A stretch of DNA of 8,516 nt from Bdellovibrionales bacterium (lineage in GTDB: Bacteria; Bdellovibrionota; Bdellovibrionia; Bdellovibrionales; UBA1609): positions 1 through 8,516 of the forward strand of contig JAPOOY010000039.1 of the NCBI GenBank assembly GCA_026713205.1, in the 5' to 3' direction. Both the position numbers and the translations under genes were made by a program. The notes under the pieces were generated by a model. The model was not told the DNA's origin and did no database searches. It saw only the letters and a program-made list of their open reading frames with translations. Below, piece by piece: positions 1-8,516 of the stretch (position 1 is its first letter; the number at the start of each line of letters is the position of its first letter).

Positions 1-18
1 ACTCATTTTTGACCCCTA
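1..18. repeat. Edge of a REP-like palindromic repeat (copy C, cut by the window)
   Basis: Bases 1-18 match 3123-3140 of the central repeat with one mismatch (T for C at base 6); the shared core is TTTTGACCCCTA. Similarity stops after base 18, so this is the outer end of a copy whose body lies left of the window. It lies in the same orientation as the central copy. The match is short, but a third occurrence of this end in 8.5 kb is unlikely by chance. Confidence 0.6.
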
Positions 19-38
19 GAGTCTGTTATAAAGGGCTT

Positions 39-116
39 ATGTCTCTTAAAGAAAAACAGGAAAAATTCAAACACGATTGGTATAGCTCTCCATTAAAAGA
101 AGAGAAGGGGGTGTAA
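39..116 (+). CDS. Possible 25-residue ORF, doubtful
   Basis: An ATG at 39 opens a 25-codon frame ending in TAA at 114-116; the peptide is very lysine/glutamate-rich (starts MSLKEKQEKF, ends LKEEKGV). AAAGGG lies 3 nt upstream of the ATG and could serve as a ribosome-binding site, and TATAAA at 27-32 could be a -10 box, but no -35 box at normal spacing is visible. The frame stays open to the left edge, so it could instead be the end of a longer gene. The repeat edge at 1-18 argues against that, because such repeats usually lie between genes. No family is recognised. Confidence 0.22.
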   Translation: MSLKEKQEKFKHDWYSSPLKEEKGV

Positions 117-131
117 TCCTTCTGTCATCTT

Positions 132-158
132 GTCAAGAAGTCCCTCAGATTTCTTGAC
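132..158. other. Perfect-stem hairpin between convergent reading frames
   Basis: GTCAAGAAGTC (132-142) pairs with GATTTCTTGAC (148-158) over 11 bp with one G-T wobble, leaving a 5-nt loop CCTCA. It lies 31 nt beyond the stop of the leftward ATPase gene. No run of T follows on either strand, so it is not a classical intrinsic terminator. It may be a 3'-end stabilising hairpin or a protein-binding site. Confidence 0.5.
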
Positions 159-189
159 CCACAAAACTCAAACGCGAGTGATATAACAA

Positions 190-2964: not shown

Positions 2965-3034
2965 CGCAACATCTCTGAAAATGTGTGTTATACCGGTTGG
3001 AGTTGAGTTTTAAGACTTTCTGTTACAATCAAGG

Positions 3035-3159
3035 TGAGTTCTTCATAGGAGGATAGGGGTCAAAAGTTCAGACATGCGTTTTGCCACAGAGCGGCTTGCA
3101 GCCGCTACTGTGTCAAAGCCGAACTCACTTTTGACCCCTATCCTCCTATGAAGAACTCA
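3035..3159 (-). repeat. REP-like palindromic element (copy A) with 33-bp perfect arms
   Basis: Bases 3035-3067 are the exact reverse complement of 3127-3159. Inside, TTGCCACAG (3081-3089) pairs imperfectly with CTGTGTCAA (3108-3116). The tip is CGGCT-TGC-AGCCG (3092-3104). On the minus strand GTAG (3108-3105) lies directly 5' of this tip hairpin, the hallmark of REP elements served by IS200-like (RAYT) transposases. The inner 56 bp (3079-3134) recur at 8461-8516 in inverted orientation with 50 of 56 identities. The outer 20 bp of each arm are not found beside the other copies. It lies between the divergent isochorismate synthase and purH. A transcript would form a very stable hairpin able to act as terminator or 3' stabiliser. 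No transposase gene is in the window. Confidence 0.85.
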
Positions 3160-3183
3160 TGTATTTGTTCATTTTTGAAATTC

Positions 3184-3210
3184 TTAAACCTCAACCTTAG
3201 TTAGTATAAA
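3184..3210 (+). promoter_or_regulatory. Possible purH promoter
   Basis: TTAAAC (3184-3189) and TATAAA (3205-3210) are spaced by 15 bp, a little short. Transcription would start near 3217 and give a 5' leader of about 24 nt before the purH ATG. An alternative -35, TTGAAA (3175-3180), is too far at 24 bp. The site lies just downstream of the palindromic repeat, so the repeat would not be in this transcript. Confidence 0.35.
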
Positions 3211-7192: not shown

Positions 7193-8353
7193 ATGAAATT
7201 TCTTTTTGTTAATTTTATTTTTTTCTTGTGTGTGTGGATACTTCCCGCCGATGCGTCAGTAAAGGACTCAAGAGAAAAACAATCCGTAAATCCCATCCTT
7301 TCACAGAAAAATCTTTTTTTTCAGAAGAACACAGAAAAAACTTACTCCTGGTTTTTTGATTCTGTAATAACAAAACAGGAATTGGCCTTGGTTCCCACTT
7401 ATTTTAGATCTCGGACTTATGGTTCAAATTTAGGGGTTCGTTTTTTTACTTTTTCTCCGAACAGAGCTGGATATTATGGGTCTTTCTCAATTTTAAACCA
7501 GGTTTTAAAACCTTATTTTAAGGTGAAAGCTCTCTATAGAAAAACTTATCTCAATGATTGGAAAATCTATTTTACAGCGGAATACTCAAACTATTTTCAG
7601 CCTTGGTATGGAGAAGGACAAAAGGGAATGCAAAGTGTTTTGCCTCCGCCGGAAAAAAATACAAAAAATTGGGAGGAATTACATTCCCATAGGATTCTCA
7701 TCAATCAGAAAGTTCTGTTTAAAAAACATTATCCTCTTTTTTATGAGATGGGAATATCTTGGATTTTTCGGCAGGAAAACCTGGCGAAGCAGAAAAAAAG
7801 ATATTTTGAGGATGAGAACTTCCCCTTTCCTGAAGCTGTTGTGGGTTATGACAGCCGAGACAGTTGGGAAAATGCAAAAAAAGGTCAATACCATCAGCTC
7901 TCTATTGGTTGTGCTTTACGAAAAAACAATTTTTGTCGGATGGAGGGAGACTTTCGTTTTTATCTCCCTTTCCATAATAAAGCCGGGTTTGCTTTTAGAG
8001 GATTTGCGGGGATGGCCTTTTTTAATGAGTTGACTTATTCTCTGGCTTACAGTTTAGGCGGATCAAAAGTGTTCCGTGGATTTCCGGATAATCGCTTTCG
8101 TGGGGATAAAATTTATTTTACCCAAAGCGAGTTAAGGTTGGATTTATGGAAAGAAATTATTTCCGGAGTGTTGTTTTTTGAAATAGGTGAAGTGGCCTCC
8201 TTCAAAGAGTCATTTATGGCGCCACGATGGAATTATGGAATGGGCCTGCGTTTCGGTTTTCCTCCCTCCTATAAAATAAAACTCCGCACGGATTTTGGGT
8301 TTTCTGATAAAGAAAGTTACAATATAACCGTAGATTTTCGTCAGGCCTTCTAA
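7193..8353 (+). CDS. Omp85-type outer-membrane beta-barrel protein lacking POTRA domains
   Basis: The 386-residue protein opens with a signal peptide (MKFLFVNFIFFLCVWILPADA, cleavage likely after Ala21). There is no room for POTRA domains before the barrel. The rest alternates aromatic, strand-like stretches and ends in Phe (DFRQAF), as outer-membrane barrels do. Omp85 (BamA/D15) C-terminal features are visible: YDSRDSWENAKKG (219-231, the D-x-R-D strand turn), FRGF (294-297, equivalent of the [VI]RG[FY] lid-loop motif), RLDLWKEIISGVLFFEIGEV (315-334, usual form GxxFFDxGxV) and GMGLRFGFP (349-357). About 360 residues suffice for a 16-strand barrel. Family members insert or export proteins or lipids; without POTRA domains the substrate cannot be guessed. 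No Shine-Dalgarno precedes the ATG, but the signal peptide supports this start. It is divergent from the small secreted protein across a 291-bp region with matching direct repeats. Confidence 0.78.
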   Translation: MKFLFVNFIFFLCVWILPADASVKDSREKQSVNPILSQKNLFFQKNTEKTYSWFFDSVITKQELALVPTYFRSRTYGSNLGVRFFTFSPNRAGYYGSFSILNQVLKPYFKVKALYRKTYLNDWKIYFTAEYSNYFQPWYGEGQKGMQSVLPPPEKNTKNWEELHSHRILINQKVLFKKHYPLFYEMGISWIFRQENLAKQKKRYFEDENFPFPEAVVGYDSRDSWENAKKGQYHQLSIGCALRKNNFCRMEGDFRFYLPFHNKAGFAFRGFAGMAFFNELTYSLAYSLGGSKVFRGFPDNRFRGDKIYFTQSELRLDLWKEIISGVLFFEIGEVASFKESFMAPRWNYGMGLRFGFPPSYKIKLRTDFGFSDKESYNITVDFRQAF

Positions 8354-8390
8354 GGGTATCAAAATTCAACTCCAGTCAACATAAAGATAT

Positions 8391-8424
8391 ACTGATCGTG
8401 TTTGAGATTTTCAGTTTTTCTTTT
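8391..8424 (+). terminator. Weak terminator candidate after the Omp85-type gene
   Basis: ACTGA (8391-8395) pairs with TCAGT (8411-8415), and TTTTTCTTTT follows (8415-8424). The loop is 15 nt and the stem is short, so this is a modest candidate 38 nt after the stop codon. The palindromic repeat at 8461 could serve as a stronger end. Confidence 0.38.
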
Positions 8425-8460
8425 ACATGAAATTAGCCCTCCCTTAAGGAAATAGAGGAG

Positions 8461-8516
8461 TCAAAAGTGAGTTCGGCTTTGACACAGTAGCGACCGAAGG
8501 TTGCTCTGTGGCAAAA
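8461..8516 (+). repeat. REP-like palindromic element (copy B, cut by the window)
   Basis: These 56 bases align without gaps to the reverse complement of 3079-3134, with 50 identities. GTAG (8487-8490) stands directly before the tip hairpin CGACC-GAA-GGTTG (8491-8503), and CACAG (8483-8487) pairs with CTGTG (8506-8510). All six differences from copy A fall in the tip hairpin and preserve it. The copy faces the opposite way to copy A and continues past the window edge. It follows the barrel gene, a typical place for REP elements. Confidence 0.85.

Follow-up and report, generated by a model that had tools for sequence, protein, structure and literature searches.

Correia elements and RUP are bacterial MITEs of the TA-inserting kind, and ERIC and similar repeats are long imperfect palindromes that lie between genes. 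REPs are palindromic, extragenic and present in more than 100 copies, with complementary changes noted among them (PMC2817692). Here we describe a repeat that shares features with each of these systems.

The window, that is, the whole stretch of DNA analysed, is 8,516 nt long and is an entire contig (G000:C225:1-8516) of a 1.5-Mb genome that is 85% complete and lies in 302 contigs. It carries three copies of the repeat, one whole (A) and two cut (B and C); copy B is truncated because position 8516 is the contig end. The features are as follows.

2989..3208, minus strand: copy A, the complete element, 220 bp from outer TATA to outer TATA, with ends located by script
Terminal repeats of copy A, minus strand: TATACCGGTTGGAGTTGAG... 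and ...CTCAACCTTAGTTAGTATA, ends located by script
3035..3159, minus strand: inner hairpin of copy A, with 33-bp arms that are 100% complementary and flank the core (repeat search)
3067..3126, minus strand: conserved 60-bp core of copy A, GAGTTCGG...TGTCTGAA, an internal loop plus apical hairpin that is kept across the family
3091..3105, minus strand: tip hairpin of copy A, 15 nt, with six of six pairs Watson–Crick
8388..8516, plus strand: copy B, the left part of an element, from the terminal repeat TATACTGATCGTGTTTGA (8388-8405) to the contig end
8490..8504, plus strand: tip hairpin of copy B, GCGACC-GAA-GGTTGC, with one G.T pair
1..84, minus strand: copy C, the left portion of a third element, truncated where the contig begins, with its terminal repeat at 67-84 (TCAAACACGATTGGTATA on the plus strand)

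The predicted fold of the whole copy A unit has an energy of -106.7 kcal/mol, and positions 3000-3190 fold with a z score of -13.1 as RNA and -15.5 as DNA. Adjoining copy C, window positions 85-165 seem to hold a decayed right-arm piece of another subfamily (CTCCATTAAAAGAAGAGAAGGGGGTGTAATCC). Elsewhere in the window, positions 190-1359 on the minus strand encode an AAA_14/DUF4143 ATPase (Pfam), and positions 7193-8353 hold a 386-aa ORF with an apparent signal peptide and no Pfam match.

The repeated unit measures about 223 bp and is bounded by terminal inverted repeats, one reading TATACCGATCnnGTTTGA and the other its mirror image. With 46 copies as its basis, a covariance model gave at least 150 matches in this genome, several of which run off contig ends; if each copy takes up about 223 bp, they would make up near 2% of the assembly. 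Homology between copies of this genome typically stops 80–90 bp from the 60-bp core on each side. We searched for ends around 71 pattern hits, some of which are not elements, allowing up to four mismatches; five hits were short of flank, and among the 66 with enough flank, both terminal repeats were present in 38, one in 12 and neither in 16. The 38 units with both ends are 200–243 bp long (median 223 bp), and 25 of them have the outer TA on both sides. Genome-wide, the terminal repeat matched 465 times, compared with 8 times for a reversed control (at most three mismatches), and 54 of 59 copies lie outside ORFs of 80 aa or more. At one locus (L018), the tip loop of an element has another nested in it, flanked by a 2-bp TA duplication, and removing 219 bp while retaining a single TA restores a canonical 15-nt tip to the host; this is the one insertion in which the TA duplication was observed, which makes the evidence for it thin. 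The same two flanking matches gave 115 bp in genome G239, with the element, and 22 bp in genome G242, without it. In a further genome (L207, G252), a copy seems, by eye, to lie within the apex of an older copy in inverted orientation and may be another instance of nesting.

We put at about 0.6 the probability that this gene-less repeat of about 223 bp is a MITE-like transposon, moved in trans by a TA-targeting transposase and with a core that would need to fold on one strand to persist. The enzyme would recognise TATACCGATCnnGTTTGA, the outer repeat, together with its mirror image; insertion of the unit would be at TA, with a 2-bp duplication, as seen once, in the nested insertion. The whole unit is predicted to form one long hairpin, with a conserved asymmetric internal loop (GAGTTCGG / CATGTYTGA) at its centre capped by a variable apical hairpin. 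This core may act as RNA or ssDNA bound by some factor, and the outer arms would stay complementary because replication switches template from one arm to the other. Units that are shorter or lack the core, the smallest being 40 bp, also have the terminal repeat at their ends, and the existence of core-less elements with the same terminal repeat indicates that the core is not needed for mobility. Three such units (L035:2510-2720, L270:53-282 and L028:2511-2677) have the same terminal repeat around a different interior without the core, which in the first two contains a hairpin with CAGGCAGGCCGTCCTGGCCTGC; a fourth (L254:241-280) is a 40-bp palindrome of just the two terminal repeats. No common terminal repeat was seen at the arm ends in genomes G017 and G041, and the MITE reading thus rests on tests in this genome alone.

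Profile searches for Y1_Tnp and DDE_3 identified no transposase for the element. DDE_3 (PF13358, IS630/Tc1-mariner) had no match in 14 genomes, an absence that weighs little because this genome is 85% complete and in 302 contigs. A candidate for an autonomous IS630-type partner, in which terminal repeats about 2.4 kb apart on contig C91 enclose a 672-aa ORF, was rejected: the ORF appears by eye to encode an ordinary membrane protein, and each end is part of its own short repeat (it was the only such pair taken, among the matches listed).

The original prediction grew from a comparison of copies A and B. Copy B (8461-8516) and the reverse complement of 3079-3134 do differ at 6 of 56 positions, all in the 15-base tip (positions 33, 35, 37, 39, 41 and 42 of the 56), and the differences are of the kinds described: two double-sided compensations (G-C to A-T and T-A to C-G), one one-sided change from G-C to G.T, and one change in the loop. 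The 41 identical bases had been taken as a sign of recent common origin, but a large family has them in common as its conserved core, so their identity proves no such origin. With the tip plus one base masked, 13 of the 48 copies from this genome (A included) show no difference from A outside the tip and 13 show one, and the exact 39-mer of copy B is present in five other copies. The expectation that further copies exist in the genome was borne out by 36 exact matches to the flank pattern with a free tip, compared with none for a reversed-pattern control.

Tips could be parsed in 62 of 63 copies (L012 was dropped), 50 from this genome and 12 from two relatives; the nine partial or rearranged rows omitted from the 46-copy alignment were kept in this set, except one. 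The 372 pair cells of these tips, which are not independent events because the copies are related, comprise 326 Watson–Crick pairs, 40 G.T pairs on the GTAG strand, one A.C and five others, so that 6 of 372 are unpaired and tips are far from being broken as often as they are kept. Re-dealing the 3′ letters gave a mean of 285 Watson–Crick, 60 G.T and about 22 A.C cells, and none of 2,000 such shuffles had as many Watson–Crick or as few A.C cells as observed. The 50 tips of this genome alone have 266 Watson–Crick, 32 G.T, one A.C and one other cell; the 20 distinct tip stems hold 16 G.T and one A.C, and when kinds of mismatch are counted by position in the 62-tip set plus G017, there are 11 G.T and two A.C. 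On the opposite strand the 40 G.T cells would be A.C. That the tip mismatches are almost all G.T, and almost never A.C, on one strand is what folding of this strand as RNA or ssDNA would produce, and shows that the core is constrained on this strand only. The bias holds in the 11 copies in which both neighbouring genes read against the folding strand (six G.T, no A.C), so local mRNA does not explain it. The result is weaker in G017, in which the 15 of 32 cores with standard length and start have 22 G.T, one A.C and 212 Watson–Crick cells, compared with 25.0, 4.7 and 197 after shuffling. By predicted core energy, the folding strand is the more stable one in 35 of 71 hits in this genome, 26 of 32 in G017 and 22 of 29 in G041; in this genome the core folding energies barely differ between strands.

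These data support selection for pairing in the tip and core, a conclusion that draws on the strand bias of mismatches and extends to the tip and core only, and the folding strand likely must fold for the element to work. The earlier proposal that the pairing is selected thus stands for these parts and is hardly supported for the outer arms. Its companion proposal of a single-strand RNA or ssDNA substrate is favoured by the one-strand G.T bias in the tips, without the IS200/RAYT transposase that it named.

To follow the element beyond this genome, the model was run across its family with stricter filters than in the genome itself and 72 candidates scored per genome, and 16 of 47 genomes matched. 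Copy number is patchy: at least 72 copies in G001, at least 59 in G016 and at least 51 in G002, with no model match in G003, of the same genus. Covariance-model matches of about 50–65 bits can arise from any long hairpin, as reverse-strand hits reveal, and distant genomes were therefore accepted on the motif. The conserved internal-loop core, GAGTTCGG...CATGTYTGA, recurs in one apparently Bdellovibrionales family. In its strict form, which overlooks carriers such as G041 and G010 whose motif is slightly different, a search of 368 genomes of the phylum found it in 20: 14 belong to the family, and the remaining six, each with a single core copy, fall in two further families of the order. Outside the order none of the 368 genomes had the strict motif, and there was one control match; two G007 motif hits in coding sequence are probably chance. 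Three loci in G010 (C112:6242-6499, C112:16322-16531 and C73:27210-27513) hold copies in closely spaced inverted pairs, as in BIMEs.

The internal-loop sequence is kept across genera while the tip and arms change. It is conceivable, as a tentative alternative, that the core itself is the lasting unit: a new class of hairpin-core element in Bdellovibrionales, centred in very long palindromes whose arms would be rebuilt or co-evolve in each copy, and spread as folded RNA or ssDNA by undescribed machinery, with the MITE shell as one of several vehicles. A phage or plasmid origin was discarded, with no blastn match and the narrow pattern in no viral contig; the sole viral-contig hit, to a broad pattern, falls where ORFs overlap on a GC-rich contig and lacks the fold of the element. 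No description of the element was found in titles and abstract starts, among the matches listed.

The same conservation of the internal loop despite changing tip and arms, together with G.U on one strand, would also fit a functional RNA, in which the structured core works in trans or binds a host protein, and copies persist because of this function instead of being mere mobile passengers. Placement relative to genes, assigned with a simple ORF caller, bears on this idea in two ways. Among the other genomes (11 copies in ORFs and two at edges dropped), 24 of 49 classified copies lie between convergent genes, 23 between tandem and two between divergent genes; among the 145 adjacent gene pairs of these loci, the corresponding numbers are 33, 91 and 21. 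In this genome (five and 12 dropped), 39 classified copies divide into 7 convergent, 19 tandem and 13 divergent, against a background of 16, 57 and 11 among 84 adjacent gene pairs, and the gene-end preference of the other genomes is absent. A bidirectional terminator, whose placement fits in the other genomes but not in this one, was accordingly rejected. The different placement in this genome, the mixed orientation to neighbouring genes and the patchy copy number (16 of 47 genomes) make a functional RNA doubtful. Nor does the window match Rfam at the gathering threshold; the best sub-threshold match is to a microRNA model, at 32 of 100 bits, as a long hairpin may give.

Pairing extends over the whole hairpin. 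In the 46-copy alignment, from which 9 of 55 distinct full-length rows that were partial or rearranged had been omitted beforehand, 94.3% of the cells in 48 pairs are paired, compared with 79.7% after shuffling. Both sides have changed in 33 of the 48 pairs (24.6 shuffled), and double-change cells number 343 (104.4 shuffled, with none of 500 shuffles as high). Template switching, however, can create and maintain hairpins and produce compensatory changes (PMC8794818), so pairing alone is not proof of selection. Arm mismatches were counted in 126 of 195 pattern hits, the 69 with weak arms being dropped. Within 0–22 bp of the core there are 105 G.T and 12 A.C, many of the G.T at fixed positions common to copies and so reflecting few events; beyond 22 bp there are 96 G.T and 61 A.C, a weak strand bias. 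From this weak bias we infer that the outer arms are more likely kept complementary by template switching than by selection. In G017 and G041, where the apical hairpin is different, arms are 96.5–99.2% complementary within a copy and, 15–50 bp from the core, 39–44% identical between copies (0.31–0.38 shuffled), or 0.44–0.53 at the best of five offsets (0.40–0.48 shuffled).

Formation of the arms by de novo inverted duplication of the flank is supported neither at the one empty site, in G242, from which the arm sequence is absent, nor in this genome, where the arms are element-borne; in G017 and G041, where identity between copies is little above shuffled, arms may have arisen in this way. Arms that are complementary within copies and nearly unrelated between them in G017 and G041 are also what would be seen if all complementarity, the tip included, came from template switching (quasipalindrome correction) with no selection on pairing. 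That account is improbable, because it predicts G.T and A.C in about equal numbers, and the observed ratios are 40 to 1 in the tips and, in the innermost 22 bp of the arms, 105 to 12, many of the latter at the fixed shared positions.

The original prediction had noted GTAG before the hairpin in both copies and called for a search for a Y1_Tnp/RAYT gene flanked by copies. No such gene was found, and GTAG varies: of 62 copies, 40 have TA as the dinucleotide that follows CACAG, which makes GTAG, and the others have AT (13), GA (7), AA (1) or CA (1), at a position inside the stem and not at its foot. The sole Y1_Tnp match of this genome is an IS200-like TnpA (L066:1-354) that runs off the contig end, and its 1.8-kb locus contains no copy; the nearest lies about 3 kb off (C72:3366-3496), and the missing contig side could hold one. 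Y1_Tnp had no match in four other genomes, including the carriers G001, G002 and G016 (87–92% complete), each with at least 51 copies. Despite the imperfect palindrome, intergenic position, high copy number, strand-specific fold and single Y1_Tnp gene, REP/RAYT movement, in which a Y1 tyrosine transposase would recognise the folded single strand at GTAG and move it, is thus highly improbable, since the terminal inverted repeats and TA duplication, the three carriers without Y1 and the variable GTAG point to MITE anatomy instead.

The many natural copies of this hairpin offer a test bed for telling selection on pairing from mutational matching of arms: in some genomes the arms are almost wholly different between copies and still match within each, and the strand bias of mismatches, strong at the tip, fades towards the outer arms, where it is weak. 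Should the core serve as a single-strand substrate, these bacteria would have a mobilising or binding activity yet to be described. Like ERIC, by general description and not by sequence, the element is a long imperfect palindrome in intergenic regions; its arms are nearly unrelated from one copy to the next in two related genomes. With REP/BIME it shares a palindromic, extragenic nature, more than 100 copies and complementary changes (PMC2817692). It differs from them in being several times longer, in having terminal repeats, in lacking a conserved GTAG head and in the absence of Y1 from three carriers. In anatomy it resembles TA-inserting MITEs such as Correia and RUP: the element is short, non-coding, intergenic, of high copy number and folded as a stem–loop, with terminal inverted repeats that start from TATA and, in the one case seen, a 2-bp TA duplication. 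It differs from them in that no matching transposase was found (DDE_3 in 0 of 14 genomes) and in having a conserved internal-loop core, paired on one strand, that recurs in other genera within unrelated arms.
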